From assembly GCA_021324255.1 (NCBI GenBank), contig JAJPJL010000025.1:1-61887 (forward strand): a stretch of DNA of 61,887 bases, written 5' to 3'. The stretch's first letter is position 1. Each line of letters starts with the position of its first letter. The notes beneath the pieces are model-generated. The model had not been told where the DNA came from. It ran no database searches and worked only from the letters and a program-made list of their open reading frames with translations. Below are positions 5,898 to 48,049 of the stretch, one piece after another. The position numbers and the translations under genes are program-made. This DNA is from Bacillota bacterium (lineage in GTDB: Bacteria > Sysuimicrobiota > Sysuimicrobiia > Sysuimicrobiales > Segetimicrobiaceae).

Positions 5898-5918
5898 GGC
5901 GCCAGCCGGATTCTGCGA

Positions 5919-6689: not shown

Positions 6690-6691
6690 GC

Positions 6692-9424: not shown

Positions 9425-10041
9425 CGGCGCCCGCCGAACCTGTTCACTCTCGAGGACCGATGATGCTTCGCATCGACGCGTTGCGAGCGATCTATCCCAG
9501 TTTAGCGCGATGCATCGTGGTCACGATCATGGGAGCCGTCTCTGCCGAGCTGCAATCCCTCGGACATCGCCCAGGGTTCTTTTACCTGCTCCATTCCATG
9601 GGGCTGGCGTCGTCCGTCGGGCTCGGCATCGCGCTCCTTCGGCCGGAATTGCACGTGGTCGTGCTGGACGGCGACGGCTCGATCCTCATGAACCTCGGCG
9701 GCCTCACGACCATGGCGCGCTACCGCCCGCGCAACCTCACACACATCGTGTTCGACAACGAGAGCCTGTTGTCGGTGGGCGGGTTCCCGACCGCCACCGC
9801 CACCGGGAGCGACATCGCGGGGATGGCCGCGGCCGCGGGCGTCCCCCGCACGACGACCGTGCACACGCTCGCCGAGTTCACGGCCGCGTTCGAAGAGTCG
9901 CTGGGTGGGAACGAGCTGACAACGCTCGTGGCCAAGGTGGAGGCGACGGGTCCTCCCGTGTACCTGACCGATCTGCCCATGCTCGAGAATCGCTTTCAGT
10001 TCCAGCGCCACCTGAGGAATCTGCGCACCGGTCAGGGATGA
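9421..10041 (+). CDS. Thiamine-diphosphate decarboxylase beta subunit, sulfopyruvate decarboxylase (ComE)-like
   Basis: Starting at ATG 9421 (ATGA overlap with ComD) the product is 206 residues; ATG 9460, behind CGAGGA, is an alternative start. The ThDP/Mg motif is present as LDGDGSILMNLGG with the trailing Asn in HIVFDNESLLSVGG. HSMGLASSVGLGIALLRPE and FPTATATGSDIAGMAAAAG match the pyrophosphate-binding half of ComE and phosphonopyruvate decarboxylases. With the preceding gene it should form an alpha/beta enzyme in the cytoplasm. The neighbouring SsuABC-like transporter and LLM enzyme make a sulfonate route reasonable. Confidence 0.85.
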   Translation: MTAPAEPVHSRGPMMLRIDALRAIYPSLARCIVVTIMGAVSAELQSLGHRPGFFYLLHSMGLASSVGLGIALLRPELHVVVLDGDGSILMNLGGLTTMARYRPRNLTHIVFDNESLLSVGGFPTATATGSDIAGMAAAAGVPRTTTVHTLAEFTAAFEESLGGNELTTLVAKVEATGPPVYLTDLPMLENRFQFQRHLRNLRTGQG

Positions 10042-20417: not shown

Positions 20418-21134
20418 CTATTCCTGTACCCTGGAGCCGCCCGTCACGCCGCCCACGCTCCGGCGGTTCATGACCTCCCGCCAGTACGCCAGCCGTTCAT
20501 CGATTCGTCCCTCGATATGTTCACGCACCCGCTGCTCCGCCCGATCCGCGTCGCCGGAGGAGATGGCATCCACGAGTCCCCGATGCTGCTCGGCGAGGCG
20601 CTCGGGATCGCGATAGACTCGGTCGCGCGTCAGCGACAACACGAGCCGCACTTGCGCCTCCAGCGCGCACCAAGCGCTGAGCAGCCGTGTGTTCCCCGGG
20701 CGGCCGACGAGGACCCGGTGGAACCTCACATCGGCTTCGATCAGTCCCGACATGTCATTGGACCGAAACGCTTCGTCCATCTCGCCGAGCACCGACTGAA
20801 GCGTCGCGATGGTCCGGTCAGTCTGACGAGCGGCATAACCTTCGAGCGCCGCACGGACTCCATAGATTTCGCGAATATCTTGCTCCGTGAGTGTGGCGAC
20901 AAACGTCCCGCCGGCCGGGACGATCCGGACCAACCCTTCCTGCTCAAGACGCCGCAACGCCTCTCGCACCGGACCGCGGCTAACCCGCAGCGACTCAGCG
21001 AGGTCGCCTTCCACGAGGCGCGTGCCTGGAGCGATCGTCCCATCGACGACGGCGTTGCGAATAGCAACGGTGACTTGGTCAACGAGGAGCGTGCGACTCG
21101 CCGGCGGGACCTGGATGCTGTGCTGCTTCACCAC
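20418..21134 (-). CDS. GntR family (FadR/FCD subfamily) transcriptional regulator
   Basis: 238 residues. The winged helix lies at about residues 15-80 (VAIRNAVVDGTIAPGTRLVE, ESLRVSRGPVREALRRLEQE, GLVRIVPAGGTFV), followed by an all-helical FCD ligand domain with GLIEADVRFHRVLV and the metal-site His in LAEQHRGLVDAISSGDADRA. FCD regulators sense organic acids or sugar acids and usually repress adjacent catabolic operons. It is the first gene of the 10910-21134 array, and a palindromic candidate operator lies 30 bases before it. Confidence 0.9.
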   Translation of the reverse strand: MVKQHSIQVPPASRTLLVDQVTVAIRNAVVDGTIAPGTRLVEGDLAESLRVSRGPVREALRRLEQEGLVRIVPAGGTFVATLTEQDIREIYGVRAALEGYAARQTDRTIATLQSVLGEMDEAFRSNDMSGLIEADVRFHRVLVGRPGNTRLLSAWCALEAQVRLVLSLTRDRVYRDPERLAEQHRGLVDAISSGDADRAEQRVREHIEGRIDERLAYWREVMNRRSVGGVTGGSRVQE

Positions 21135-21420: not shown

Positions 21421-22323
21421 CTATTGACCGTTGCTACGCCCGAAGAATTCTTCGTCCGGCAACAGACCGTCGAGCGTCTCGAGCGCCCGGCGGCTTTCTT
21501 TGAGGCGGCGGTTCACCGCTGCCGTCATGAGCGCATTGATGATCGCCACAGCCGCAGTGTACGAGTTGAAAAACGACGCGGCCCGCACCCCGCAGACCAG
21601 CGAAACGGTAGCCACCTGAGCGGCCGGCGAGGCCAGGGAATCGGCGATGACCAGCGTGCGCGCTCCTCGGCGACGGGCCAGTTCCATCGCGTCCACCGTG
21701 CGTTTTGTATAGCGCTCAAAGGAAAACGCCACGAGCACGTCCCGGCGCCCGATGTACCGGAGCTGCTCGAACAGCGCAGCATCGCCATGCGTGAGGACGT
21801 GGCTTCGCGTGCCGGACGTCGTGAGGAGAAAGCCGAGCAGAACGGCCAGGCTCCCCAGGCCGCGCAGGCCGAGGGCGTAGACGTCCTCCGCCCGCGCAAG
21901 GAGATCGACCGCGCGGGGAAAGGACGCGACCGTCACGGGGTCGCTCGCGGTGACCTGGAGGTTTTCGATATCCGAGGTGATCGTTTGCCGCAACACATCG
22001 TCACTGCGCCCGGCCGTGCCGCGGACGGCCTGATCGCCTTCAAGCCGCCGGAATGGCGCGAGTTCGTTCTTCACGATCTTTTGGATGGCGCGGAGCAGCT
22101 CCGGGTAGCCGCTGTACCCAAGGGCGCCGGCAAATCGGATCACCACGGACTCGCTGACACCAACGTTGGCCGCGACCCTAGCGGCCGGCAGAAACGCGGC
22201 ATCGCGATGCCGCTCCAACAGATAGTCCGCGAGTTTTTGGAAGCTGGGACTCAACGTCCGATATTGCGAGCGGATACGCTGGAACACTTCCAGATGGTCG
22301 CCGCGGTCCTCGGCCAGCCGCAC
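21421..22323 (-). CDS. RpiR/MurR family transcriptional regulator (HTH plus SIS domain)
   Basis: About 300 residues from the GTG at 22323 (preceded by GGCGGAGC); the frame is open further upstream into the aminotransferase end. The N-terminal HTH has YRTLSPSFQKLADYLLERH and VAANVGVSESVVIRFAGALG; the C-terminal SIS domain includes VYALGLRGLGSLAVLLGFLL and ARTLVIADSLASPAAQVATV. RpiR proteins sense phosphosugars or related ligands and bind inverted repeats. It lies 25 bases after the aminotransferase gene in one unit. The duplicated palindrome at 23631 and 29725 is the natural candidate binding site. Confidence 0.88.
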   Translation of the reverse strand: MRLAEDRGDHLEVFQRIRSQYRTLSPSFQKLADYLLERHRDAAFLPAARVAANVGVSESVVIRFAGALGYSGYPELLRAIQKIVKNELAPFRRLEGDQAVRGTAGRSDDVLRQTITSDIENLQVTASDPVTVASFPRAVDLLARAEDVYALGLRGLGSLAVLLGFLLTTSGTRSHVLTHGDAALFEQLRYIGRRDVLVAFSFERYTKRTVDAMELARRRGARTLVIADSLASPAAQVATVSLVCGVRAASFFNSYTAAVAIINALMTAAVNRRLKESRRALETLDGLLPDEEFFGRSNGQ

Positions 22324-22348
22324 CGCTCCGCCGCGATGCGCGGCGCGG

Positions 22349-23542
22349 CTACGCACGCGCGCCACGATACCGGTGCACCGCCTCGGCGAGTCGCGCAAGT
22401 CCCTGGGGGAGCATCTCGGTCGGTACGGCGAGCGAGCCCCGCACGTACGAGTCCCACTCCGGTCCGATGCTGCCGCCGGACCCGATCACGAGGCCGTATT
22501 CGTCGCGCACGCGCCGGCTGAATTCCGCGGCCGTGAGGCCGGTCGTCCCGACGTCGATGTAGATGTAATACGCGCCCTGAGGTCGACCGTACGAAAGACC
22601 CATATCGTCGAGCGCCTCCATCCACAGGTGCCGGCGGCGGTCATATTCCGCGAGCACGCCGCAGAACCACTGCTGCGGCCCGGTGAGCGCCGCGACGGCC
22701 GCCCACTGGGAGATCGACGGCGCGCAGATCGTCATGCCGTGCTTGATCGGCAGCATCGCGCGCACGAACTCGGCGGGAGCCGCAATGTAGCCGATGCGAA
22801 AGCCGGTCATCGCGAAGGCCTTCGAAAATCCGTTGATCGTGACCGTCCGTTCAAACATCCCCGGCATCGCCGCGATACTGTGGTGACGGTGCTGCTCGTA
22901 CACGTACTTCTCGTACAGCTCGTCCGCAATCACCACAAGATTGCGTTCGGCCGCCAGCGCGGCGACACGCTCGAGCACGGCGCGCGACTGCACGGCGCCC
23001 GTGGGATTGCTCGGCGAGATCACGATCACGGCTTTCGTGCGCCCGGTGATGCGCGCCGCGAGCGCGTCCACATCGATCGCGAAGTGATCGGCTTGCCGGC
23101 TCGGAACGGACACAAGCGTCGCGCCGGCCATGAGGGCGTCACGGCGATACTCGTCGTAGTACGGGGCGGAAACAAGGATCTCGTCGCCCGGGTCAAGGAA
23201 CGCCTGGCACACCACCTGCAGCGCCTCCTGCGTTCCCGTGGTCACGAGCACGTCCGAGTCGGGATCCACAGTGATCCCATTGTCCTGTGCCAGCTTGTCG
23301 GCGATGGCGCGACGCAGCTCCGGGATCCCCGTCCACGGCGTATACGCGGTTTCACCACGGTCGAGCGCCCGCTTTGCGCCGTCGAGAATGTGCGGTGGAA
23401 CCGGGAAATCGGGCGTACCGCTCGACAGCGTAATGAATCCCGATGTCGGCACCGACGTCTGCCGTGGAAACCCCTGTCCGAGCTCGCGAGCGCGCCGAGA
23501 CATCACCCGTTCGATCAGTGTCCCGCGTGCAGCCTCCGGCAT
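22349..23542 (-). CDS. Class I/II PLP-dependent aminotransferase
   Basis: 397 residues from ATG 23542, which has GGGAGG about nine bases upstream. Landmarks are SSGTPDFPVPPHIL, YTPWTGIPELRRAIA, TTGTQEALQV, the NPTG segment ISPSNPTGAV, VIADELYEKYVY, the PLP lysine in TINGFSKAFAMTGFR (K241) and VRGSLAVPTEMLPQGLARLA with the carboxylate-binding Arg. It is a fold-type I aspartate-aminotransferase-like enzyme; the amino donor and acceptor are not predictable. The duplicated operator lies 88 bases upstream of the start. Confidence 0.9.
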   Translation of the reverse strand: MPEAARGTLIERVMSRRARELGQGFPRQTSVPTSGFITLSSGTPDFPVPPHILDGAKRALDRGETAYTPWTGIPELRRAIADKLAQDNGITVDPDSDVLVTTGTQEALQVVCQAFLDPGDEILVSAPYYDEYRRDALMAGATLVSVPSRQADHFAIDVDALAARITGRTKAVIVISPSNPTGAVQSRAVLERVAALAAERNLVVIADELYEKYVYEQHRHHSIAAMPGMFERTVTINGFSKAFAMTGFRIGYIAAPAEFVRAMLPIKHGMTICAPSISQWAAVAALTGPQQWFCGVLAEYDRRRHLWMEALDDMGLSYGRPQGAYYIYIDVGTTGLTAAEFSRRVRDEYGLVIGSGGSIGPEWDSYVRGSLAVPTEMLPQGLARLAEAVHRYRGARA

Positions 23543-23630
23543 CGGTCGGCAGCCTCCCGTCGATCGCGGCTCCCGGGCGGAGATCGGACCGGGAATCGTG
23601 GCAATACTTTCTTCAATACTTAGTGTAGCC

Positions 23631-23646
23631 TGCAGGATTTCCTGCA
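23631..23646. promoter_or_regulatory. Candidate RpiR operator, copy 1: TGCAGGATTTCCTGCA
   Basis: A perfect inverted repeat (TGCAGGA-TT-TCCTGCA) lies in the divergent region between the aminotransferase (minus, start 23542) and the family-5 SBP (plus, start 23862). The identical 16 bases recur at 29725. A -10-like TACACT on the minus strand (23623-23628) almost abuts it, as expected for a repressor site. Apart from this, the 319-base intergenic region 23543-23861 shows nothing else. Confidence 0.65.
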
Positions 23647-23861
23647 CGTGGGCCGGTATTACGGCGGTGGACCGGTCTGCGAGCCCGATTGGTCCAGCGC
23701 AGCCGGCCCGGGCGAGGGGATGGGCAGCGTGTGGAAGGTCAGACGGACGAGCAGGCACACGACCCGGCCGCGGCGGCGCGCGAAGTGCCTCGCGGCCGGG
23801 TAGCCGGATCCGGAGCGGCCGTAGACGCATGATGGTTGAGCCACACGTGGGAGGTGTGGGT

Positions 23862-25475
23862 ATGAGGTCGAGCGTGAAGCTGACGCGCCGGCAGCTCCTG
23901 TACGGAGCCGCCGGAGGACTCGCCACGCTGGGTGCCGGCGCATTCCCGGTCGCAACGCGCGCGGCCGCGCGAGGCGGCAATCTCGTCATCGCAACACCCG
24001 CGGACAGCGAACCGGCATCCCTCGACGGCCAGGTCGATCCGTATACTTCCACATTTCTGTTCGATTCGTTCGTCAGCGACCCGCTGGTGGTGCTCACGGC
24101 CGACCGAAAGTTCGTACCGGGCGTCGCGTCGAGCTGGACGGCAGCCGCAGAAGGCCGAATCTGGACCTTCACGATCAAAGATGGACTCACGTTCCAAGAC
24201 GGCACACCATGCGACGCGGATGCGGTGCGATACAACATCGAACGGGTGATGAGCCCTGACACGCACTCAGCGCTGATGGCGACCGACCTCGGCCAGCCGG
24301 CGTTTCTTCGGGCCGAGGTAGCCGGGACGAATCAGGTACGGTTGCTCTACCGGGAGCCTTTCCCAGAGTTGCTGAGCGGCATGAGCATTTTCCCGATCTG
24401 GTCCCCCGCCGCAGTGAAGCAGTACGGGACCTCGTTTCAGCAGCATCTGGTCGGTGAAGGGGCGTTCCGGATGACCTCGTGGGTCCGGGGCGACCATATC
24501 AGCTTCGCGCGCAATCCCGCGTACCTTGGCAGGACGACGCTGCAGCACCATCCGGGACCGGCATACCTTGACAGCATCACCGTGAAGTTCGTCGGCAGTG
24601 CCGGCGTGCTCGGCGAGATTCTCAAGACCGGCGAGGCGAACTTGGTGATGGGACTCCCCTCGCAGGCGCTGGCGGACTATGCGCACAATCCCAAGTATCA
24701 GATCGTCACCGGGTATCAACCGGGCAATGGCTTGATGTTTACGATGAACACCAGCCGGGCGCCGCTCAACGACATCCGGGTGAGGCAGGCGCTGCGCTAT
24801 GCGTACGATCAGCAGCGCATGAACCAAACCTTGTATGCGGGGACCTACGTCGACGTCTACGGCCCGCTCACCAGATACACACTGTACTATTGGAAAGGCG
24901 CGGAAACGGCGTACCGTTACGATCAAGCCAAGGCGCGCGCGCTGTTGGACGCAGCCGGCTGGAAGCCGGCGGGCTCGGGCATCCGCGAGCGCGACGGGAA
25001 ACCGTTGACCTTGACGATGGTGATGCTGCACCACCGCGAGATCGGCGAGTACCTCGCGGCGCAGTTCAAGGCGGTCGGCGTGGATCTTCGGCCCGTCGTG
25101 GTCCCCGGACCCGTGCAGCTGCAACGGGCGCAGAGCGGGGACTTCGATCTCATCTATGAACGGCTGCGTACCCTCGAACCGGATATCCTGTACAGTGAGT
25201 TCTATTCCAAAAACGCCGGGAAACCGGGCGGCTGGGCCTGGTCGGGATTCCACGACGCGCAACTGGACGACGCGCTCCTCCGAACGCAACAAACCGCGGA
25301 CCCTCAGGTGCGCGCCAAGTATTTTGCGGAGGCACAGCGTCTCTTGACGCAGTTCGCGGTCTACCTGCCGACGCTTGACGATCCGCAGTTCTTCGCCATG
25401 CCGGCGACCGTGAAAGGGTTTCAGCTGGGAGCGACCGGCGCGTGGTTCTTCGCCAACGACGTATACGTGGAATGA
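23862..25475 (+). CDS. ABC transporter substrate-binding protein, family 5 (RpiR locus)
   Basis: 537 residues from ATG 23862, preceded by GTGGGAGGTGTGGGT. The Tat signal is KLTRRQLLYGAAGGLATLG. Family-5 features are ATPADSEPASLDGQVDPYTS, FQDGTPCDADAVRYNIERVM, VGEGAFRMTSWVRGDHISFA and AKARALLDAAGWKPAG. The cognate DppC and (frameshifted) DppB are probably the minus-strand genes at 27801-29633, which share the same candidate operator. Substrate unknown. Confidence 0.92.
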   Translation: MRSSVKLTRRQLLYGAAGGLATLGAGAFPVATRAAARGGNLVIATPADSEPASLDGQVDPYTSTFLFDSFVSDPLVVLTADRKFVPGVASSWTAAAEGRIWTFTIKDGLTFQDGTPCDADAVRYNIERVMSPDTHSALMATDLGQPAFLRAEVAGTNQVRLLYREPFPELLSGMSIFPIWSPAAVKQYGTSFQQHLVGEGAFRMTSWVRGDHISFARNPAYLGRTTLQHHPGPAYLDSITVKFVGSAGVLGEILKTGEANLVMGLPSQALADYAHNPKYQIVTGYQPGNGLMFTMNTSRAPLNDIRVRQALRYAYDQQRMNQTLYAGTYVDVYGPLTRYTLYYWKGAETAYRYDQAKARALLDAAGWKPAGSGIRERDGKPLTLTMVMLHHREIGEYLAAQFKAVGVDLRPVVVPGPVQLQRAQSGDFDLIYERLRTLEPDILYSEFYSKNAGKPGGWAWSGFHDAQLDDALLRTQQTADPQVRAKYFAEAQRLLTQFAVYLPTLDDPQFFAMPATVKGFQLGATGAWFFANDVYVE

Positions 25476-25482
25476 CGGCGGC

Positions 25483-26790
25483 GTGCATACCGCTCGCACG
25501 CTCGCGCTCCGTGTTGGATGCCTCATCGATGGCACCGGTGCCGCACCGCCTCACGGCGTGACCATCGTGCTGGCCGGTGATCGGATCGAGGGCGTTCGTC
25601 CGTCGCCGGCGGAGCCTGGCGGCCCGGGCCACGTCTGGAATTTGTCGCGCTACACGGCGCTGCCGGGACTGATCGACGCTCACGTCCACGTCTTCGGCAG
25701 CGGAGATCCCCGCGAGCCCAACTGGTTCGTGCGCGAGGTGACGGAGCTCGTCCCGACCGTCGCCTTCAATTGCCTGATCAACGCGCAGCGGAATTTGGCG
25801 TACGGCTTCACCACGATCAGAGATCTTGCGTGTTGCCACTATGCCGACGTTGCGCTGCGAAACGCCATCGAAGCGGGCCGCCTGGAGGGGCCGCGGATGA
25901 AGGTGTGCGGCATCGGCCTGACGAGCACGGCAGGGCACATGGACCGGGCCAAGGGGTTCGCACCCGGCGTCGTTGTGCCGGGACCCAGCGCGATCGTCGA
26001 CGGTCCGGATGAGGGGCGGCGCGCCGTGCGTGCCAATCTGAGATACGGCGTGGATTTCATCAAGATCAACGCGACACTGAGTGAGCTCGTCCGGCCGCTG
26101 GGCGGATTGTGTTCCCCGGAAATGACGCGCGAGACGATGACGGCGATCTGCGAGACGGCGCACGCCCACGGCCGGAAGGTCGCCGCCCACTGCCACGGCG
26201 GCGTGGGCGTCACGTGGGCCCTGGAGGCCGGCGTTGACGTGCTCGAACACGGGCGGTTCTTGACGGACGAGCAACTGGATACGATGGCGGCCAGGGGAGT
26301 GTTCCTCTGCCCCACGTTGAGCCCCGAGGCCAAAGCGCGCGATCTCGGTCTCGTGCCCCCCGATCCTCACCTCGCGCGCTGGCAGGAGCGTGCGAGGGAC
26401 GCCATGTACGAGACGGTCAGGAGGGCGCGCCGTGCCGGCGTGACGATCGTCAACGGCAGCGACGCCGCGATGCCGGGCGTTCGCCACGGCGAGGGCGGCG
26501 CGTACGAAATGGCTCAGCTCGTGGCCGCGGGGCTCTCTCCGATGGAGGCGGTGGTTGCCGCCACCAGCGCGGCAGCGCGCTGTTTGGGCATGGAAAGCGA
26601 GATAGGCACGGTCGAACCCGGGAAGCTGGCCGACTTGATCCTGGTTGAGGGAGATCCGCTCGAAAGGATCGAGCTCTTGCAGGATCTGGAGCGGGTACCG
26701 GTCGTGATCAAGGGCGGCCGGATCGTTGCGAACCGCCTGCCGGCCGCGGAGGCCGCATCATTGCCGGCCGCCCTCGGGCAATCCCGCTGA
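25483..26790 (+). CDS. Amidohydrolase family protein (imidazolonepropionase/prolidase-like)
   Basis: 435 residues from the GTG at 25483, seven bases after the SBP stop. The metal site is LIDAHVHVFG (H67, H69), the bridging Lys is in DFIKINATLSE, and further ligands lie in GRKVAAHCHGG, VLEHGRFL and the Asp of IVNGSDAAMP. The terminal IGTVEPGKLADLILVEGDPL is typical of the group. Members cleave cyclic amides or Xaa-Pro-type bonds. Its last 33 bases overlap, tail to tail, the end of the Gfo/Idh gene on the other strand. Confidence 0.9.
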   Translation: MHTARTLALRVGCLIDGTGAAPPHGVTIVLAGDRIEGVRPSPAEPGGPGHVWNLSRYTALPGLIDAHVHVFGSGDPREPNWFVREVTELVPTVAFNCLINAQRNLAYGFTTIRDLACCHYADVALRNAIEAGRLEGPRMKVCGIGLTSTAGHMDRAKGFAPGVVVPGPSAIVDGPDEGRRAVRANLRYGVDFIKINATLSELVRPLGGLCSPEMTRETMTAICETAHAHGRKVAAHCHGGVGVTWALEAGVDVLEHGRFLTDEQLDTMAARGVFLCPTLSPEAKARDLGLVPPDPHLARWQERARDAMYETVRRARRAGVTIVNGSDAAMPGVRHGEGGAYEMAQLVAAGLSPMEAVVAATSAAARCLGMESEIGTVEPGKLADLILVEGDPLERIELLQDLERVPVVIKGGRIVANRLPAAEAASLPAALGQSR

Positions 26791-27804
26791 GCCATTGTCT
26801 ACCCGCTCGGGCCGCCCAGCAGCGGCCGAGCGGTACAGTGCCAACGCGACCTCCAGCCCCCGCAGCCCGTCTTCGCCGGTGACCGCGGGGGGACGGCCCT
26901 CTTTCAGCGCCGCTATGAACTCCGCCGCCTGCCGTTCGAAGCGGTGGTCCGGGCCGTACGTCCAGCGCTGCGTGCTGTCGCGGCCGCGATACTCGAGGCT
27001 GGCTCCGGTCGTCAACGTCAGCGCGCCCTCGCTGCCGAAGATCTCGGTCACCCAGCCGCCCAAACGGCCGTACCCCGGGGCATTCTCAAACAAAACGGCC
27101 ACCGCTCCGCCCGCGAACGTCAGAACCGCACTTACCCCGTCTTCCACGTCCGCCGGATTCGAGTATGTGGCAAGCCGTGCGTAGACTTCGGCCACCTCGT
27201 CATCGAGCAGCCAGCGCAGCCGGTCGATCGCATGGACCCCTCCGTACATGATCACGCCGCCCCCAGCGTCAACCCGGTTCCACACCCACCCCGGCGTCTC
27301 GGCCATGCCGCCGCTCATGAAACGGTCGAGCGCAGTCGCCGGCCGGCCGAGGCATCCTCGAGCGATGAGAGAGCGCGCGGCCTCGGTCTCGGGCCGGAAC
27401 CGATGCACGTATCCCATCATGAGCCGCACACCCGCCTGCTCGACGGCCCCGAGAATCGCATGCGCGTCATCGAGCGTGGTGGCCAGCGGCTTTTCAAGCA
27501 GCACGTGCACCCCTGCGGCCGCAGCCTCGAGGACGCAGGCGCGGTGCAGCGCGTGCGGGACCGCAACCACCACGGCATCGATCGGCTCGGCTAGCATGTC
27601 GCGGTAGTCGACATAGTGTACGGCTCCGAACCGGCGGGCCAAGGCCTGTCCGCGCTCCGGGTCCAGTTCGGAGACAGCCGTGATCGTGGCGTCCGCACGC
27701 GCAGCAAACGCCTCGGCGTGCCGCTCGCCGGCAATGCCCGCACCGACAATGCCGATCCGCACCCTCGGCACGTCGATCGGACGGGACGGCGCCGGCCGGT
27801 TCAT
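26758..27804 (-). CDS. Gfo/Idh/MocA family oxidoreductase
   Basis: 348 residues; the Rossmann motif is VRIGIVGAGIAGERHAEAF, the catalytic-Lys motif is LLEKPLATTLDDAH, and the second domain has GGGVIMYGGVHAIDRLRWLL. It closely resembles the enzyme at 10910-11929 in layout (same GYVHRFRPE and FVHRFRPE segments), suggesting paralogues serving parallel pathways. The start overlaps the DppC stop by four bases (ATGA). Confidence 0.9.
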   Translation of the reverse strand: MNRPAPSRPIDVPRVRIGIVGAGIAGERHAEAFAARADATITAVSELDPERGQALARRFGAVHYVDYRDMLAEPIDAVVVAVPHALHRACVLEAAAAGVHVLLEKPLATTLDDAHAILGAVEQAGVRLMMGYVHRFRPETEAARSLIARGCLGRPATALDRFMSGGMAETPGWVWNRVDAGGGVIMYGGVHAIDRLRWLLDDEVAEVYARLATYSNPADVEDGVSAVLTFAGGAVAVLFENAPGYGRLGGWVTEIFGSEGALTLTTGASLEYRGRDSTQRWTYGPDHRFERQAAEFIAALKEGRPPAVTGEDGLRGLEVALALYRSAAAGRPERVDNGSAGLPEGGRQ

Positions 27805-28703
27805 CGGGAGATCGAGCGCGGGTCAAGCGCCGCGCGGAGGCCGTCGCCGAGGAGATTTACCGCCATAGCGGCTGAGAAAATGGCGAACCCAGGGAATGTC
27901 GACATCCACCACGCTCCCGCGAGATATGCTTGACCATCCGCCGTCATCAGGCCCCACTCGGGGGTCGGCGGCTGGGCCCCCATGCCAAGGTAGCTCAAGG
28001 CGGATCCGACCAGGATCGCATTGCCGACCTGCAGCGTCGACAGGACGATGAGAGGACCGAGCACGTTAGGCACGATGTGGCGAAGGATCACGCGGCGGTC
28101 GGATCCGCCGAGCGCACGGGCCGCCTGCACGTACTCCACCTCACGAATCGTCAGGCACGACCCGCGCACCAACCGTGCGTACAGCGGGACGGAGGAGACC
28201 CCGACGGCCAGCATGACGTTGAGCAGACCGGGTCCGAGGGCCGCGATCACGACGAGCGCGAGCAATAATCCGGGGAACGCCAGCATCGCGTCGACGAGCC
28301 GCATCAACACCCCGTCTGCCCGACCTCCATAGTACCCGGCGACCAAGCCCGTGAACGAGCCGGCAATCAGGCCGATCGCGACGCTGATTAGGCCGATCGC
28401 GAGGGACAGCCGGGCGCCGAAAATCAGCCGGCTCAAGATGTCGCGGCCCAGCAGATCCGTCCCCATCAGATGAACCGCCGAGGGCGGCTGCCGGCTTGCG
28501 CCGACCAATGCAATCGGATCGTATGGAGCAATGTGGGGCGCGAGGGCGGCGGCCAGGGCCCAGGCGGCGAGGATCACGGCGCCGGCCAGCGCGCCTCTGT
28601 TGCGCCGGAGAGCGCGCCAGCCCGGCGCGGACCACCGCCGGCGCCTTTCCAGTGCCGGCGCGGCGGACGCCGACGCGGCGTTGACAGCGGCTGTGTCACG
28701 CAT
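27801..28703 (-). CDS. ABC transporter permease, DppC type (RpiR locus)
   Basis: 300 residues: a variable basic N-terminus, LAGAVILAAWALAAALAPHI, the hallmark HLMGTDLLGRDILSRLIFGA, the EAA loop EYVQAARALGGSDRRVILRH and the end LRAALDPRSISR. Intact. Its partner gene dppB (28696-29633) overlaps by eight bases but is frameshifted. Substrate delivery is likely by the SBP at 23862. Confidence 0.92.
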   Translation of the reverse strand: MRDTAAVNAASASAAPALERRRRWSAPGWRALRRNRGALAGAVILAAWALAAALAPHIAPYDPIALVGASRQPPSAVHLMGTDLLGRDILSRLIFGARLSLAIGLISVAIGLIAGSFTGLVAGYYGGRADGVLMRLVDAMLAFPGLLLALVVIAALGPGLLNVMLAVGVSSVPLYARLVRGSCLTIREVEYVQAARALGGSDRRVILRHIVPNVLGPLIVLSTLQVGNAILVGSALSYLGMGAQPPTPEWGLMTADGQAYLAGAWWMSTFPGFAIFSAAMAVNLLGDGLRAALDPRSISR

Positions 28704-29633
28704 ATTTGATCCGGGGATCGATCCAGGCGTACAGCACGTCGATCAGGAGATTGACGAGCACGTAGGAGACGGACGTCAGCAGCACCGCGCCCTGGATCAA
28801 CGGATAATCGTGCCAGAGGATCGCCTTCACGATCAACGAGCCAAGGCCCGGGCGGCTGAAAACCGTCTCGGTAATCACCGCTCCGCTCAGCATGCCGCCG
28901 AACTGCAGCCCGGCCACCGTGATGACGGGGATCAGCGCGTTCTTCAGCGCATGTTTCGCCATGACGGCACGCCAGCGCAGACCCTTGGCCAGCGCGGTCC
29001 GGATGTAATCGTGCCGCAACGCCTCGATGAGGCTCGCACGCATGAGCCGGCTGATGAGTCCGGCGGCAACGAACCCGAGCGTTAGGGCCGGCAAGATGAT
29101 GCCGCGCGGCTGTCCGCCGCTGATCGCCGGCAGCCACTGCAGATGGATGGAAACCGCAAGGATGAGCAGGAGGGCGAGCCAGAACAGCGGCATCGAGACG
29201 CCGAGGAGCGATACCACCATGGCCGCGCTGTCGGCCCACGAATTTTCGTACAGCCCGGCGATGAAGCCGAGCGGGATACCGATCAGCAACGCCGCCGCCA
29301 TGCCCGCGAGGCTCAACTGAAACGTCTGCAGCGACGCGACGAAGATGAGATCATTCACCGGCGCCTGGAACCGGATCGACTGTCCGAGATCGCCACGCAG
29401 AGCGTGGACGATGAACCCACCGTACTGGAGGTACAGCGGCCGGTCCAACCCCATGCTCTTTCGCAGTTCCGCGATTCGTTCCGGCGTCGTGACGCCCGCT
29501 TCGGCGCCTGCCAACATCAACTGCACGGGGTCCCCGGAAGCGCGTGCATGATGCCGAAGACGATCGAGAATACCAGGACGACCACGGGGATGAGCACCGC
29601 GAGCCGCTGTCCGATATATGTGGCCATCCCCAT
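28696..29633 (-). pseudogene. dppB-type permease gene with a single-base frameshift (RpiR locus)
   Basis: The N-terminus is read from ATG 29633 (behind GCAGGAGCGG): GMATYIGQRLAVLIPVVVLV, then IVFGIMHALPG, ending prematurely at a TGA. The rest, beginning DPVQLMLAGAEAG and running to YAWIDPRIKYA, is in the next frame. Inserting one G in the GGGG run (plus-strand C4 at 29532-29535) restores the universal DppB text LPGDPVQLML. So the gene is complete except for one base in a homopolymer. It is either a true pseudogene, a phase-variable run or an assembly/base-calling error. The EAA loop (RTALAKGLRWRAVMAKHAL) and the membrane helices are otherwise intact. Confidence 0.85.
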
Positions 29634-29724
29634 CCGCTCCTGCGGTACCGACGCGCGGCACGCCGGCGCCGAACACGCCGGGGTCGCAGCCGCCGCAGTA
29701 TAAATGGCTACGTTCGGTTGATAT

Positions 29725-29740
29725 TGCAGGATTTCCTGCA
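29725..29740. promoter_or_regulatory. Candidate RpiR operator, copy 2: TGCAGGATTTCCTGCA
   Basis: Identical to the 16-bp inverted repeat at 23631-23646 and again in a divergent promoter region, here between dppB (minus, start 29633) and a Gfo/Idh gene (plus, start 29793). A -10-like TATACT on the minus strand (29697-29702) lies 22 bases away. The flanks differ from copy 1, so only the palindrome is conserved. Confidence 0.65.
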
Positions 29741-29792: not shown

Positions 29793-30884
29793 ATGCCGCA
29801 ATCGTTTCGGACGCTGCTGGTAGGGCTAGGTGCCCGCGGCCGAGTGTGGGCCCGCCTGCTCGATGAGGAGCCGCGGGTCACGGTCGCGGGCTATGTCGAC
29901 AAGGAGGAAGAGCGGCTCGCCGCGGTGCGCGACGCCTCTCGCGTCCGAACCACCGCCTGCTTTACGGACCTCGCGGACGCGCTGCGGACGGTCCGGCCCG
30001 ATCTGGTGGTGCTTGCCACGCCGCCGATGGACCGATCCGGAGACGCACTGGCGGTCTTAGCACATGGTGCGCATTTGCTGTGTGAGAAGCCGCTGACGCT
30101 CGACCTGGGGGAGGCGGTCCGCGTCGTGGAGGCGGCCGAACAGGCGGGACGCGCCCTTGCGGTCGGGGTGAACTTTCGTTACCAGCATTGCGTGACCCGG
30201 GCGCGCGCGATCGTGCGATCGGGAGAGATCGGCTGCCCGGCGTTTTCCCGGTACGTCTACTGGCGCAACCGTGACGGTTACCGGCCGGGGCTGAACCGGT
30301 ACCCGCTGACGATGCGCCAGCCCATGCTCTACGAGCAGTCCATTCATCACTTCGACCAGATTCGGTTCGTATACGATGCGGAGGTGCAGCGTGTGTCATG
30401 CCGCTGCCACAACCCGCCGTGGAGCATGTACCGGGATGACGCGACCGTGTCGGCCGTCCTCGAGCTGTCGGGCGGCATCTTGGTCACGTACATTGGAACC
30501 TGGTCCGCGCAGACGAGGATGACGGATTTCGAGTGGCGGACCGACTTCGATCGAGGCGCCTTGGTGCAGCGGCAGATGTTCTCCGACCTCTCGATCGCCC
30601 GGGGGCCCGACGCCGAGCGCGTGGTGCCGGTTCCGCTGCCGGCCCAAGAACAGCTCGTCGATGACGCCCGGCTCCTGCTGGCGCACGTTGTGGAGCAACT
30701 CGCGGCCGGAACGCCGCGGCCGCACCCCTCCGGCCTCGATCACCTGAAGACGCTCGCCGTCGTGGCGGCCTGCGAGGAATCGCACCAAACGGGACGGGCC
30801 ATTCTCATGGAGGACTTGTACGCGCGACACCACGTGCCGGACCGCTGGCTCACATGGCGCGAGGCCGGACGGCCCGAGGGCTGA
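29793..30884 (+). CDS. Gfo/Idh/MocA family oxidoreductase
   Basis: 363 residues from ATG 29793. The Rossmann start is TLLVGLGARGRVWARLLDEE, the Lys motif is LLCEKPLTLDLGEAVRVVEA, and the C-terminal half contains LYEQSIHHFDQIRFVYDAEV. It is more distant from the other two Gfo/Idh enzymes here (no HRFRPE segment). It heads a plus-strand unit with an amidohydrolase and a glycosidase-like gene under operator copy 2. Predicted as an NAD(P)-dependent dehydrogenase of a sugar-like substrate. Confidence 0.88.
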   Translation: MPQSFRTLLVGLGARGRVWARLLDEEPRVTVAGYVDKEEERLAAVRDASRVRTTACFTDLADALRTVRPDLVVLATPPMDRSGDALAVLAHGAHLLCEKPLTLDLGEAVRVVEAAEQAGRALAVGVNFRYQHCVTRARAIVRSGEIGCPAFSRYVYWRNRDGYRPGLNRYPLTMRQPMLYEQSIHHFDQIRFVYDAEVQRVSCRCHNPPWSMYRDDATVSAVLELSGGILVTYIGTWSAQTRMTDFEWRTDFDRGALVQRQMFSDLSIARGPDAERVVPVPLPAQEQLVDDARLLLAHVVEQLAAGTPRPHPSGLDHLKTLAVVAACEESHQTGRAILMEDLYARHHVPDRWLTWREAGRPEG

Positions 30885-30901
30885 TCAAGGAGGAAGATCG
30901 A

Positions 30902-32119
30902 ATGACGACGCAATTGCTTGCCGGAGGCTGGGTCCTTGACGTGCGGGCGGGAACACGGCGGCGCGCAGACGTGCTCGTGGAGGGAAGCCGGATCGCGCAC
31001 GTGGCGGCTCCCGGGGCGGCACGGGCGTCCGACGCGCCGCGGGTGGATGCCGCGGGGCTCACCATCCTGCCAGGCTTTTCGAACAATCACGTCCACGTCG
31101 GTTGGAGCGGCATGGGATGGGACGGAGGGCCGACCGGCATCCTGCGCGACGAGGCGCTCAACGACTCGGACGGCATCAACGGCATCAAGGCCGCCGCGAA
31201 TCTGCGCAAGTCTTTGCGCGCGGGCCTGACCGCGCTGCGCGACCTCGGGATGCGCATGAGCGCGTTCGACGCGAAAGAAGCGCTCCGCCGCGGTCTCATC
31301 AAGGGGCCGAGGCTGTTCATCGCCGGCCGGGCGATCATGTGCACAGGTGGCCACACCTGGTGGTGCGGCCGGGAAGCCGACGGCGTGGACGGGATGCGCG
31401 CGGCGGTGCGCGAGCAGGTGAAGCTCGGCGCCGACCACATCAAAATCATTGCGAACGAGCGCACGCCGCAGTACAGCGTAGAGGAGCTGCGGGCGGCGGC
31501 CGACGAGGCGCACCGGCTCGGCCGGCGCATCACGGCGCACGCGTCCATTCGCGAGGCGATTCGCAACGTCGTGGCGGCCGGGTTCGATTCGATCGAACAC
31601 GGCGGCCCGGCAGACGACGATGTCATCGAGCAGATCGTGGAACGCAAGATGATCGTAGTGCCGACGTTGTCTCCGCGGGTGCTGCAGACCGAGCGTGGCC
31701 CGTCGCGCGGGATGCCGGCGGGGGTGGCCGCAGCCCGGCGGAAGCAGACGCTGGAGAACCCGCCCGGCGCGCCGCTTCGACGCATGCGTGAAGCCGGCGT
31801 GAAATTCGCGTTCGGCACGGATGCCGGCAGTCCGTGTGTACCGCATGACGAGATTATGGGCGAGATCGCCGCGCTGCTCGAATACGAGGCGGTCGCGGAG
31901 CCCCTCGATGTTGTCCGGATGCTGACCATCAACAGCGCGGAGTTGCGGGGCGACGACGACCGCCTCGGCACCGTGGAGGAAGGCAAGCTGGCAGACCTTG
32001 TGGCGGTGGACGGCGATCCGCTCGCGGATATCCGCGCGCTCGGGAACGTGCGCCACGTCTTCGTGGACGGCGAGCACCTGGTTCGGGACGGCGAGTTGCA
32101 CGATTGGTACGACTGGTAG
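30902..32119 (+). CDS. Amidohydrolase family protein (imidazolonepropionase-like)
   Basis: 405 residues from ATG 30902 with AAGGAGGAAGA upstream. The metal site reads GFSNNHVHVG (H63, H65), with Asn in place of the Asp usually found two before the first His. The other ligands are present: HIKIIANERTPQ, RITAHASIREA, SIEHGGPADD and FGTDAGSPCVP. It ends with LGTVEEGKLADLVAVDGDPL. It is related to the enzyme at 25483 (same C-terminal layout). Its place between a Gfo/Idh gene and a glycosidase-like gene suggests an N-substituted sugar or similar compound (inference). Confidence 0.88.
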   Translation: MTTQLLAGGWVLDVRAGTRRRADVLVEGSRIAHVAAPGAARASDAPRVDAAGLTILPGFSNNHVHVGWSGMGWDGGPTGILRDEALNDSDGINGIKAAANLRKSLRAGLTALRDLGMRMSAFDAKEALRRGLIKGPRLFIAGRAIMCTGGHTWWCGREADGVDGMRAAVREQVKLGADHIKIIANERTPQYSVEELRAAADEAHRLGRRITAHASIREAIRNVVAAGFDSIEHGGPADDDVIEQIVERKMIVVPTLSPRVLQTERGPSRGMPAGVAAARRKQTLENPPGAPLRRMREAGVKFAFGTDAGSPCVPHDEIMGEIAALLEYEAVAEPLDVVRMLTINSAELRGDDDRLGTVEEGKLADLVAVDGDPLADIRALGNVRHVFVDGEHLVRDGELHDWYDW

Positions 32120-32132
32120 GGGGCGCGGCGGC

Positions 32133-33551
32133 ATGCAGGTGAGGAGCAAGTTTGTGGGGATTCAGATTAGCCCGGTCAGCTTCATCGACGAAGGGATCGG
32201 GCCCCTCCTCGACACGCTGAAGGAGCGGTTCGGCATCAACGTGCTGCTGATCGGGACGATCTCGTGGCTGGGCCTCAAAGTGGGCCGGCGCATCTCATGG
32301 AAGATCGACGGGTGGCCCGACCACGGCGCGCAGGACGCGCGGCCGCTCGAAGGCGGCTCGTACATCGCGGAGCATCCAGAATACTATCAGAACACGTTCA
32401 TTAAGCGGTTCCGCGCCCGAGACGAAGAGTTCGAGAACGTCGACGTGCTGGAGATGGTCATCCCGGAAGCGCGCCGGCGCGGCATGCAGGTCTACCCGGA
32501 GGTCATGGAACCGCTCTTCAACTACGAAGGCCACGGCTCGGCGCAGACAGTGGCCATTCCGAACCTGCCGCAAACGCTGGAGATCGACGCATTCAACCGC
32601 GTGGGCGCCGCGCCGTGCATCAACCACCCGGATTACCGGGCGTGGTGGCACTCGATCATCGAAGACTACTGCCGCAGTTACGACATCGACGGTGTGATGT
32701 GGTGCAACGAGCGGCGGAGCCCGCTCGACGGGCTGATCAGCGGCACCGCGGCGCACTGCTTCTGCGAGCACTGCCGGCGCCTGGCCGCTGCCAGGGGGGT
32801 CGATGCGGAGCGCGCGCAGGCAGCGTATCGCACGGGCGCGGACTTCTTCGAGGCAGCGCGCTCGGGCGCCGCGCTGGAAGACGGCGCGCTGGTGGAGTTC
32901 CTACGCCTGCTCTACGAGCACCCGGACCTGCTGGTCTGGGAGCGGTTTTGGGTCGAGCGCAACAAGGACATGGACCGAGAGCTCTACGGCATCGTGAAGT
33001 GGTGCAAAGGATCCCTGGAATTCGGGCTCAACGTCTGGAACCGCAACCACCTGAACCCGCTGCGTAAGGCGGAGTGGCCGTGGCGGGAGATGACGCGCTG
33101 GTGCGATTGGGTGAAGCCGATCACGTACCAGCACCAGGCCGGCGGCGTTTACGTCAAGGAAATGACCGACTGGCACCGCTCGATCCTGCGTGATGTGACG
33201 CCGCAACAGATGACCCCGTTGATGTACCGGTTCCTGGGCCTTGACGAGGCGCCGTGGGATGAGGTCGTCCAGCGCGGATTCGATCCGGATACGTACGTGT
33301 ACGGGCAGTGTCTTGCGACGGTTCGGGCGATCGGGGATCGAGTGCCGGTGTACATGGGCATCGGGGTGGACGCTCCCCGAACCCGGGAAGACCAGGCCCG
33401 GTGTACGCCGGATATCGTGCGCCGCAGCGTCCTGGCGACGTACCGTGCCGGCGGCCGGGGGGTCGTCTTTTCGCCGAACTACGCTGGGATGAATCTCTCG
33501 ACACTGGATGGCGCTGCCCAGGCACTCCAGGAACTCGGCCTGCTTTCGTGA
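32133..33551 (+). CDS. Uncharacterised TIM-barrel, glycoside-hydrolase-like protein
   Basis: 472 residues from ATG 32133, 13 bases after the amidohydrolase. There is no signal peptide, so it is cytoplasmic. Features that recall retaining glycosidase or DUF4015-type barrels are repeated beta/alpha segments (FGINVLLIGTISWLGL, RRRGMQVYPEVMEP, YDIDGVMWCNERRSPL) and acidic residues near strand ends (MWCNE, VYPEV). A CEHC pair (HCFCEHCRRLA) could bind metal or form a disulfide. I do not recognise the exact family and give no reaction. The unit Gfo/Idh, amidohydrolase and this gene suggests carbohydrate-linked substrates. Confidence 0.7.
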   Translation: MQVRSKFVGIQISPVSFIDEGIGPLLDTLKERFGINVLLIGTISWLGLKVGRRISWKIDGWPDHGAQDARPLEGGSYIAEHPEYYQNTFIKRFRARDEEFENVDVLEMVIPEARRRGMQVYPEVMEPLFNYEGHGSAQTVAIPNLPQTLEIDAFNRVGAAPCINHPDYRAWWHSIIEDYCRSYDIDGVMWCNERRSPLDGLISGTAAHCFCEHCRRLAAARGVDAERAQAAYRTGADFFEAARSGAALEDGALVEFLRLLYEHPDLLVWERFWVERNKDMDRELYGIVKWCKGSLEFGLNVWNRNHLNPLRKAEWPWREMTRWCDWVKPITYQHQAGGVYVKEMTDWHRSILRDVTPQQMTPLMYRFLGLDEAPWDEVVQRGFDPDTYVYGQCLATVRAIGDRVPVYMGIGVDAPRTREDQARCTPDIVRRSVLATYRAGGRGVVFSPNYAGMNLSTLDGAAQALQELGLLS

Positions 33552-34984: not shown

Positions 34985-35704
34985 TCATGACTCGCCCCTC
35001 AGGCGAGGATCGAAGGCATCCCGCGCCCCGTCGCCGGCGAGGTTGAAGGCGGCGACCGCGAAGAAGATCGCGATCGCAGGAAACAGCACGACCCACCAGT
35101 GATCGCGCATATACTGACGGCCATCGGCCACCATGCGGCCCCAATCCGGCGTCCCGGGCTCGGCGCCGAAGCCGATAAAGCTCAGCGCCGCCGTGGTGAG
35201 GATAATCGCGCCGAGATCGAGCGTCGCCTGCACCACCACGGGACTGAACGCGTTGGGGAGCACATGCTGGAGAAGCACCCGCAGGTGTGGCGCGCCGATG
35301 GAGCTGCTGTATTTCACCGCTTCCGCGGTCAGCTCGCTGCCGGTAGTGAACTTCACGCCGCGGCGCAGCTTGAAGGTGTAGACCGTGCCGTTTCCCGAGA
35401 CGGTCCACGATTCGGCCAGGTACGGCTTGGCGTCGAGACTGTAGCCCGGCAGGTACGTTAGGGTGTCGTAGAGCTCGGTCAGCACCCACCAGTTGCGGTT
35501 ACCGCGCGCTGTCTGCGGATCCAGGTTGTCCTGCACCTGATCCCAGGCGACCTGCAACGTACCGGAAATCGCACGCTGCGCGCTCGCCGTACCTACCGCG
35601 CGCGACAGCCAGCCGGCGCCGAACCCCACGCCGAGGGCGCCGCCGGCCAGGGCATGGCGCAGCGCGTCGCGCCGCGAGAAGGTCGCCTTATGCCGTCCGT
35701 CCAT
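34985..35704 (-). pseudogene. In-frame chimera: N-terminus of a family-5 SBP fused to the C-terminus of a DppC permease
   Basis: Residues 1-135 are a typical SBP start: Tat signal FSRRDALRHALAGGALG, then LQVAWDQVQDNLDPQTARGN and GVKFTTGSELTAEAVKYS. From about residue 136 (35297-35308) the text switches without a stop to the C-terminal third of a DppC permease: IGAPHLRVLLQHVLPNAFSP, LSFIGFGAEPGTPDWGRMV, RDAFDPRLRGES. Using the intact operon at 16879-20401 as a ruler, the missing part (SBP C-terminus, all of dppB, DppC N-terminus) is about 2.8 kb. The product cannot work as either protein. It is a deletion scar or an assembly join. Confidence 0.85.
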
Positions 35705-41664: not shown

Positions 41665-42849
41665 TCACGCCGTGGTCGTCTTGCGCTGCGCGAAGAACGC
41701 CTGCAGGTGATCAACGACGTAGGCGACATCGTCCGCCGTCATCTGCGGATAGAGCGGCAGCGTCATGATCTCGCGGGCGAGGCGCTCGCTCACCGGCAGG
41801 GCGCCGGGCCGGACGCCGAGTTGGTCGCGGTACGGAACGTCCAGGTGGATCGGGGTCGGATAGTGCACCTGGGTGCGCACACCGTGTTCGGCCAGGTATT
41901 GCCGGAGCGCGCGGCGCTCGCGCACGCAGATCTCGAAGCGCACGTACGAGTGGTACGCATAGGGCCGCTCGCCGGGCAGGTCGATCGGCAGGTGGCACGC
42001 CGCGATGAGCTCGCGGTACAGGCCTGCCCATCGCCGGCGCTGCTCGATCCACGCCGGCAGCCGGCGCAGCTGCACGCGGGCCACGGCCGACAAGATCTCG
42101 GATTGCCGGTAGTTGAAGCCCACCTCGTCGTGGGCGACCGGCATGGAGTCGTCGCCGCGAGCGCGGTGAAATTGCTCGCCGCGCGCGTGGTTCGCGAGGT
42201 TGAACACCCGGCGCACCCGCATCTCGTCGAACGACGCCACCGCACCGCCCTCACCGCCGCACGTCATGGCCTTGTTCTGGACAAAGCTGTAACAGCCCAT
42301 CTGCCCGAGCGTGCCGACGGGGCGGCCATGGTAGCGCGCGCCGATGGCCTGACAGGCGTCCTCGATCACGAGAAGGTTGTGCCGGCGTGCGATATCGAGG
42401 ATCGGGTCGAGATCGGCGGGATGGCCGGCCGTATGGACGGGCATGATGGCCCGCGTCCGAGGCGTGATCGCGGCGGCCGCGGACGCCGGGTCCATGTTGT
42501 ACGTGTCCGCCTCGACATCCACCGGGACCGGCGTGGCGCCAACCAGCGAGAGGCAATGCGCCACGCTGACAAACGTGTTCGCGGGGATGATGACCTCGTC
42601 GCCCCGGCTGACGCCGTACGCCAGCCATGCAAGATGCATCGCCGCGGTACCGTTCGCCAGGTTCGCCACGTATAGGCGCCGCCCGTCCGAGCCCGCCAGG
42701 AACGCGCCGAACTCCTCCTCGAGCGCTTTGCCCTCTGACGATTCGGTGGGCGACGTGCGGATGTAATGCCCAGAATCGAGCACGCGGCACGCAGCGTCCT
42801 TCATTTCCTGATCGACGACCGGGCGAAATGCGACAATGCGGCCGGCCAT
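41665..42849 (-). CDS. DegT/DnrJ/EryC1/StrS family aminotransferase, copy 1
   Basis: 394 residues. Features are LDSGHYIRTSPTESSEGKAL, NLANGTAAMHLAWLAYGV, VIIPANTFVSVAHCL, VIEDACQAIGARYHGRPVG (PLP-pyridine Asp, D164) and the PLP lysine in SFVQNKAMTCGGEGG (K193). C-terminal HSYVRFEICVRERRALRQYL and VHYPTPIHLDVPY are typical. The family makes amino groups on nucleotide sugars or aminocyclitols. It is most like the copy at 48050 (shared EVEADTYNM/EPDTYNM segment). It stands alone on the minus strand between plus-strand genes. Confidence 0.9.
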   Translation of the reverse strand: MAGRIVAFRPVVDQEMKDAACRVLDSGHYIRTSPTESSEGKALEEEFGAFLAGSDGRRLYVANLANGTAAMHLAWLAYGVSRGDEVIIPANTFVSVAHCLSLVGATPVPVDVEADTYNMDPASAAAAITPRTRAIMPVHTAGHPADLDPILDIARRHNLLVIEDACQAIGARYHGRPVGTLGQMGCYSFVQNKAMTCGGEGGAVASFDEMRVRRVFNLANHARGEQFHRARGDDSMPVAHDEVGFNYRQSEILSAVARVQLRRLPAWIEQRRRWAGLYRELIAACHLPIDLPGERPYAYHSYVRFEICVRERRALRQYLAEHGVRTQVHYPTPIHLDVPYRDQLGVRPGALPVSERLAREIMTLPLYPQMTADDVAYVVDHLQAFFAQRKTTTA

Positions 42850-43031
42850 GGGTCCCTCCCCTGCGGTGATGCCGTCGGCAATACCCGTGGTTGTTCAAGG
42901 GGTTCCGGTAACCAGCACCGAAGTCCTGCGTGCTTTGAAACCGTGTTCCGAGTCACGTCGGCTTCCAGCACTGTTTCACATCATTGTTCCATTACGTCGC
43001 ATGCGAACGACCCCTCGAGGAGGCTGAGCAG

Positions 43032-44030
43032 GTGGCCCGACGGTCCTGGTATTGCATTCGCACGGAATCGAAGCGCCAGCCTTCGTACGACATAGCGGTC
43101 GAGCGCAGTATCTTGGAACCCGCCGGTATCCGCGTCGAATCGGTAGACATGGACGACCCGGTAGCCTTCGAGCGGGCCGCCCCGCTCGTCGACGCGGTGC
43201 TGCACTCCCGGGGCATACTCGACGCCGCGAGAATCGACCGGCTGATCAAATGCCGCATCATCGCGCACTACGGGACGGGCGTCGATCGCGTGGACGTGGC
43301 GGCGGCGACGGCGCGGGGCATCTGGGTGACCAATGGGCCGCTCTACGCGGTGGACGAGGTCTCCTCGCACGCGATCGCCCTGCTGCTGGCCGTGACGCGC
43401 AAGATCGTCGCTGCCGACCGGGCGGTGCGGTCCGGCCAGTGGCACATCAAACCGGTCGTCCCGCTGCGGCGAATTGCCGGACGGACGCTCGGCCTGCTCG
43501 GGTTCGGCAATATCGCGCGGGCCACCGGACGCAAAGGCCGCGCCCTCGGCCTCGATGTCATGGCGCACGATCCCTACCTCGACGAGGCCGTGTTCCGCTC
43601 CGAACACGCCCGCTCGGTGGACTTCAAGACGTGTGTGTCCGAGTCGGACATCCTGTCCATCCACCTGCCGCTCACGCCCGCGACGCGCGGGATCGTCTCG
43701 CGCGAGGCGATCGCGATGATGAAGCCCGATGCGGTGCTCGTTAACACCTCGCGCGGCCCGGTGGTGGACGAGCCGGCCCTCGTGGACGCCCTGCGCGAGG
43801 GCCGGCTCGCCGGCGCGGGCCTGGACGTCTTCGCCGAGGAACCGTTGCGTGCCGACCATCCGCTCCTCTCGCTTCCCAACGTGACGGTGTCCGGGCACAT
43901 CGGCTTCTACTCGGAGGAGTCGATCAAGCAGGGCCAGCGCGACGCGGCCCAGCAAGTGGTCGAAGCCCTGCAAGGCCGACCGCCCGCGTTTCTCGTCAAC
44001 CGGCAGGTGCTCGAGCGGCCGTCCCGCTGA
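43032..44030 (+). CDS. D-isomer-specific 2-hydroxyacid dehydrogenase (C-terminal-binding-protein-like)
   Basis: The GTG at 43032 with GAGGAGG upstream gives 332 residues; the longer TTG start at 42984 adds a segment with no family match. Landmarks are YGTGVDRVDVAAATARGIWV, the NAD motif LGLLGFGNIARATGRKGRAL, LVNTSRGPVVDEPALVDAL and the catalytic His near LPNVTVSGHIGFYSEES. The family reduces 2-oxoacids to D-2-hydroxyacids. It is followed 30 bases later by the PIG-L gene, suggesting a two-gene unit. Confidence 0.88.
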   Translation: MARRSWYCIRTESKRQPSYDIAVERSILEPAGIRVESVDMDDPVAFERAAPLVDAVLHSRGILDAARIDRLIKCRIIAHYGTGVDRVDVAAATARGIWVTNGPLYAVDEVSSHAIALLLAVTRKIVAADRAVRSGQWHIKPVVPLRRIAGRTLGLLGFGNIARATGRKGRALGLDVMAHDPYLDEAVFRSEHARSVDFKTCVSESDILSIHLPLTPATRGIVSREAIAMMKPDAVLVNTSRGPVVDEPALVDALREGRLAGAGLDVFAEEPLRADHPLLSLPNVTVSGHIGFYSEESIKQGQRDAAQQVVEALQGRPPAFLVNRQVLERPSR

Positions 44031-44060
44031 GCGCCTCCGAACTCCGAGGAGGGATACGAC

Positions 44061-44792: not shown

Positions 44793-44883
44793 GGGGACAG
44801 CATACTCGACTGCCCGCCCGCACGGACCCGCGCCGAACAACGCGCAAGAGGCGCGGCGGCCTCTCGGGCAGCGCGACGCGCCG

Positions 44884-46032: not shown

Positions 46033-46047
46033 GGGGCTCCTCCCGAT

Positions 46048-46348
46048 TCAGCGGCCGCCGGCGAAGAACTCGGCGACGGCGGCTGTGACATATTCGACTT
46101 CGGCTTCCGCGACCGCGGGGTGACACGGGAGGGACAGGATCTCCCGGCACGCCGCCTCGCTTCGGGGAACCTGTCCTTCTCGGTAGGGCAGGCGCCCGGC
46201 GTGGCGGTGCACCGGCACCGGATAATGCACCGACGCCGTGATGCCGCGCCGCGCCGAGGACGCCCTCAAGGCGTCGCGCTCCTTGAGCTGGACGACGTAG
46301 TGCAGCCACGTATGTGAAGCGTACCGGATACCTGTAAGGGATCTCCAT
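46048..46348 (-). pseudogene. Internally deleted DegT family aminotransferase, copy 3
   Basis: The first codons (ATG 46348: M-E-I-P-Y-R-Y-P-V) match the N-terminus of copy 2. After about nine codons (46322-46327) the sequence jumps, in another frame, to the last quarter of a DegT protein: RYASHTWLHYVVQLKERDAL, RGITASVHYPVPVHRHAGRL and ACREILSLPCHPAVAEAEVE, with the stop at 46048. Compared with copy 2 roughly 280 codons, including the PLP lysine, are absent. It is non-functional as read. The deletion could be biological or a collapse between paralogues during assembly. Confidence 0.75.
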
Positions 46349-46385
46349 CCTCGAGCGCGATCCGGCCGACATCATCGCCACCCGC

Positions 46386-48004: not shown

Positions 48005-48049
48005 GGTCACTCCCCGGCTTGCCCGAGGGCGCCGGCGATGCGGACTGCC

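Follow-up and report, generated by a model that had tools for sequence, protein, structure and literature searches.

RpiR-family regulators that act through palindromic operators have been described in several bacteria. RccR of Pseudomonas has a 15-bp operator, TGTAGT-N3-ACTACA, at several target promoters, acts on central carbon genes and has as its ligand KDPG, a sugar phosphate (PMC5489143). NanR of Streptococcus pneumoniae controls sialic acid genes; several promoters within one cluster carry its near-palindromic operators of 18 bp, and a tetramer is proposed to bridge the sites. It binds phosphosugar via a conserved loop, which in the solved phosphosugar-binding proteins holds the phosphate and in which, in NanR, Ser179, Ser181 and Thr184 are described as highly conserved (PMC12713135). 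In Caulobacter, the promoters of the inositol genes, a catabolic pathway with a sugar-type ABC transporter, share the IolR palindrome GGAA-N6-TTCC (PMC2597717). A further RpiR protein, from Sphaerobacter thermophilus, is represented by a structure (3sho) that covers the SIS domain only and has no assigned function.

The locus considered here lies in the window, the whole stretch of 61,887 nucleotides that was analysed, and contains two exact copies of the 16-bp palindrome TGCAGGATTTCCTGCA (Table 1). Judged from sequence, this palindrome is very probably the operator of the RpiR-family protein encoded in the same locus, which would control genes for uptake and breakdown. The arrangement resembles that of RccR in its palindromic operator with TGnA arms, its several target promoters and, as proposed here, its autoregulation, and that of NanR and IolR in the presence of sites at several promoters of one cluster or pathway. 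It is distinguished from RccR by its arms, TGCAGGA-N2-TCCTGCA, and from the IolR system by a transporter of the peptide type.

Table 1. Features of the locus, in window coordinates
Feature	Position	Strand	Remarks
RpiR/MurR-family regulator, HTH_6 + SIS	21421..22398	-	PF01418 and PF01380 above cut-off; fold matches
Class I/II PLP aminotransferase	22349..23542	-	PF00155; overlaps the start annotated for RpiR; predicted to lead the operator-1 leftward unit
Operator 1, TGCAGGATTTCCTGCA	23631..23646	.	between aminotransferase (-) and SBP (+); exact match
Deletion scar, SBP gene start joined to DegT 3' end	23733..23794	+	blastn against G001 locus L035
Peptide/nickel-type solute-binding protein SBP_bac_5	23862..25475	+	PF00496
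Amidohydrolase 1, Xaa-Pro dipeptidase-like	25483..26790	+	PF01979; best NCBIfam Xaa-Pro dipeptidase, below cut-off
Gfo/Idh/MocA oxidoreductase 1	26758..27804	-	PF01408
DppC-type permease	27801..28703	-	NCBIfam GsiD/Opp4C-like, below cut-offs
DppB-type permease	28696..29632	-	NCBIfam Opp2B-like, below cut-off
Operator 2, TGCAGGATTTCCTGCA	29725..29740	.	between dppB (-) and Gfo/Idh-2 (+); exact match
Gfo/Idh/MocA oxidoreductase 2	29793..30884	+	PF01408; first gene right of operator 2
Amidohydrolase 2	30854..32119	+	PF01979; kin of Xaa-Pro/Xaa-Arg dipeptidases and N-acyl hydrolases; PDB 3mkv, 3mtw, 2qs8
GHL10-like protein	32130..33551	+	weak GHL10 match below cut-off

The regulator has the architecture of the RpiR/MurR family, with an N-terminal HTH_6 domain (50.4 bits) and a C-terminal SIS domain (58.8 bits), and the palindrome upstream of its own unit and of the linked genes is conserved together with it. 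Its start codon is uncertain, the conserved protein beginning near residue 35, and its AlphaFold model (pLDDT 74.8) matches RccR, NanR, 3sho and MurR in a fold search. The SIS domain lacks the S-x-S-G-x-T loop that typifies the phosphosugar-sensing proteins such as NanR, MurR and RccR: the corresponding stretch reads AFSFERYTKRT, with the second serine and the glycine replaced. The four close orthologues share with the window protein a loop of the form S-F-[EQ]-R-Y-T, and that of the G013 homologue is similar. The same loop type occurs in many Clostridial homologues (SFPRYS) and in 3sho, which is the best SIS sequence match and a strong fold match, and in which WRYL replaces S-x-S-G-x-T; other RpiR genes of the order keep SDSGST. 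In light of the altered phosphate loop, the protein may respond to something other than a phosphosugar. A bolder and distinctly tentative proposal is that these proteins form a subclass whose SIS domain would have lost the phosphosugar pocket and would sense an unphosphorylated carboxylate- or amide-bearing metabolite, a carboxylate perhaps being held by the new arginine of the loop; they would control an undescribed pathway based on the amidohydrolase and the GHL-like protein. A literature search for RpiR proteins linked to hydantoin, amidohydrolases or non-phosphorylated effectors returned nothing relevant.

The original prediction assigned to the regulon an aminotransferase, a solute-binding protein (SBP) with DppBC, two amidohydrolases, two Gfo/Idh enzymes and a glycosidase-like protein, and these same genes do flank the two sites. 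The PDB relatives of the aminotransferase are aspartate and aromatic aminotransferases. The dppB frame is broken near 29526 in a G-run (29500-29560, minus strand) and is intact in G001, G005 and G009; the cause is either misassembly or a genuine frameshift. Compared with its relatives, the rightward unit of site 1 is shortened: G001 has the order SBP-DegT-SBP-amidohydrolase 1, and G005 and G009 have SBP-DegT-M42 peptidase. A blastn comparison with locus L035 of G001 pairs window positions 23501-23688 with 6535-6724 and 23742-23995 with 9522-9774. The match that ends at 23688 thus covers sequence preceding the first SBP gene of G001, and the one that begins at 23742 takes in the 3' end of DegT, so that a deletion of ~2.7 kb has removed the first SBP and DegT genes. 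The GHL10-like family, of 470 aa, recurs beside dipeptidase-like amidohydrolases (also in L214, L216, L217 and L131); a sequence search gave no solved relative, and a structure prediction was discarded at a pLDDT of 40. The amidohydrolase 2 gene has the GHL-like gene as its neighbour in seven genomes or MAGs (G000, G001, G005, G009, G013, G017 and L131), G017 having a second GHL-like copy that is not beside amidohydrolase 2. In a soda-lake Clostridia MAG (L131), a 49% identical RpiR gene stands beside an amidohydrolase 2 homologue and DegT, GHL-like and Gfo/Idh genes.

This mix, first remarked on as unusual for an RpiR regulator, is less odd for the present protein, because its SIS domain departs from the canonical phosphosugar type. 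The accompanying idea of an amino- or amido-sugar route gains support from the DegT-type aminotransferase in the regulon of G001, G005 and G009, and the gene content supports a putative substrate of the amide/amino-sugar type. It has a serious competitor, only somewhat short of an even chance, which concerns the substrate alone: the locus could serve uptake and hydrolysis of peptides or N-acyl amino acids unconnected with sugars, in which case other chemistry would fall to the Gfo/Idh and GHL-like proteins. The SBP5/Dpp transport genes, the dipeptidase-like amidohydrolases, the M42 peptidase in the relatives' regulon and the hydantoinase/oxoprolinase, amidase and Dpp-type transporter genes faced by the G013 RpiR gene all point this way, whereas the retention in the same units of two Gfo/Idh enzymes, a member of the DegT sugar-aminotransferase family and the GHL10-like protein speaks against it. 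Elsewhere in the window, three DegT-type aminotransferase genes (41716-49204, minus strand) suggest that an amino-sugar biosynthesis cluster lies nearby.

The sites themselves are highly specific. A pattern search of the 3.74-Mb source assembly (G000; 142 contigs, ~95% complete) recovered TGCAGGANNTCCTGCA without mismatch at operators 1 and 2 only, bearing out across the genome what had been claimed by eye for the window. With up to three mismatches, the window holds beyond both copies only 35520-35535 (three mismatches), as against a mean of 0.28 matches in shuffled sequence. The motif is not scattered through genes: there are five one-mismatch sites elsewhere in the genome, on other contigs and all inside ORFs, among them C89, ATGCAGGATATCCTGCC, which encodes MQDILP at the start of hisS. 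From composition, ~1e-4 shared exact 16-mers would be expected between the two intergenic regions. Flanking gene coordinates confirm that both regions are divergent: operator 1 precedes the aminotransferase ATG (23542) by 88 bp, and operator 2 precedes the Gfo/Idh-2 ATG (29793) by 52 bp.

The sites are also conserved upstream of the loci that carry the same regulator. Four further genomes of the family encode RpiR orthologues (90% identity in G001, 74% in G004 and ~70% in G009 and G005), and all four keep site 1 between the aminotransferase and SBP genes; site 2 is kept in all three loci with the second promoter assembled (G001, G005 and G009), the G004 contig ending inside the SBP gene. Operator 1 retains 14-15 of its 16 bases in G001, G004 and G009, and 13 in the degenerate G005 version, CGCAAGGTTTCCTGCA. 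The gene facing Gfo/Idh-2 across site 2 is dppB in G000 and G001 and an SBP gene in G005 and G009; despite this changed gene order, the sites remain between the same functional units. A gap-free alignment of 11 sites has 11 invariant columns out of 16, and when conservation was compared along each intergenic region in sliding stretches of 16 bases, the best-conserved stretch coincided in both with the motif to within a shift of one base.

Across the order, motif presence tracks an RpiR subclass. The pattern GCAGGAWWTCCTGC occurs 18 times in 29 genomes versus once for the reversed control, and 10 of the 18 occurrences adjoin these rpiR loci. Inspection of seven of the remaining eight placed each of them in an ORF, named from the translations as hisS, a sensor kinase, a halogenase-like gene, pyruvate phosphate dikinase, a molybdopterin oxidoreductase and a radical-SAM-like gene in two genomes (the G029 case being equated with that of G016 from its flanks); the eighth, C124 of G001, is identical over 14 letters to the G000 hisS site. 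The divergent rpiR genes of G013 (~42%) and G020 (36%) each have a perfect site just upstream; in G020, a partial second copy lies 39 bp beyond the first, where rpiR probably starts (L044:11564-11618). The G020 gene and its paired operator-like sites lie upstream of an SBP_bac_6 transporter operon; in G013, the site (L043:928-943) faces the genes noted above (992-6215), the hydantoinase/oxoprolinase being fused. An order-wide scan upstream of HTH_6 genes found by a recognition-helix pattern gave motif-like sites only with the helix type '(V/T)S(E/D)(S/A)xV(V/I)RFA..LGY.GYP'. Two related orthologous rpiR pairs of one genus have TGAAGGAATTACTGCA, TGAAGGGAATTCTGCA, TGAAGGAACTCTTGCA and TGAAGGAAACCTTGCA at -65 or -77. 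Among the scanned genes, the motif is absent from the canonical phosphosugar-type RpiR genes of the order ('RLCRR'/'SEATVVRLC'). Related RpiR genes in G026 and, as a second copy, in G013 have no clear site, and L131, the closest outside homologue, has none.

Upstream of 76 Clostridial homologues, TGCA-N8-TGCA is in no excess over coding controls, and hence no claim is made for the motif outside this order. Matches of the TGCAGGAAGTGATAGA type in Flavonifractor recur at a single position, ~225 bp upstream, and seem to belong to an upstream gene. High GCAGGANNTCCTGC counts in family f4 vanish once the centre is limited to A/T; with non-A/T centres, several f4 genomes have 6-9 copies (control 0-1), some of them without an RpiR match.

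The rpiR gene of the window is not directly beside a site but follows the aminotransferase gene, and the sites could in principle belong to another regulator, either one encoded elsewhere or the GntR/FCD protein at 20418-21134, whose gene adjoins rpiR directly in the window genome and in G001. This is improbable: the G004 and G009 loci keep the motif although no GntR gene was found in them, the sites of G013 and G020 lie directly upstream of rpiR, and family members without this RpiR have no intergenic sites. Together with the genome-wide specificity, the conservation in orthologues and the tracking of the subclass, the absence of the GntR gene supports the RpiR regulon as originally envisaged. 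Even less credible is an RNA hairpin or a repeated-element remnant in place of a protein-binding site, for although RNA could form a 6-bp stem with a 4-base loop, there is no T-run or terminator match, the genome has only two copies, the letters are conserved and not just their pairing, and the sites stand between divergent genes.

The -10-like hexamers that had been noted beside the sites fared unevenly. TACACT, adjoining operator 1 (23622-23627), is not kept in the orthologues; near operator 2, the position of TATACT (29697-29702, minus strand) is conserved as TAnnnT (TATACT, TATGGT or TACACT), at a fixed distance from the operator. A promoter scan found no sigma-70-like promoter reaching 9 of 12 in either intergenic region. 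If TATACT is a -10 box, the operator-2 centre would lie ~42 bp upstream of the expected start, a position compatible with interference at the -35 region as well as with class-II-like activation.

With the palindrome taken as the RpiR operator, we infer that a dimer would bind each dyad. Operator 1 would serve the divergent aminotransferase-rpiR and SBP-amidohydrolase 1 units, so that the regulator would control itself, and operator 2 would serve dppB-dppC-Gfo/Idh-1 and Gfo/Idh-2-amidohydrolase 2-GHL-like. A pathway metabolite on the SIS domain would alter binding or oligomerisation, and the switch would thereby govern the import and degradation of a compound with amide or amino groups, possibly linked to a sugar. 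Since repressors predominate among the characterised RpiR proteins, repression is our first guess for the window protein, held with a modest lean in its favour.

These observations offer a regulator-operator pair with a defined regulon in an uncultured lineage, in a form that can be tested. The pair of amidohydrolase 2 and the GHL-like protein would mark a pathway of so far undescribed chemistry. The RpiR subclass, which is frequent in gut Clostridia too, probably has a ligand that is not of the textbook phosphosugar type.
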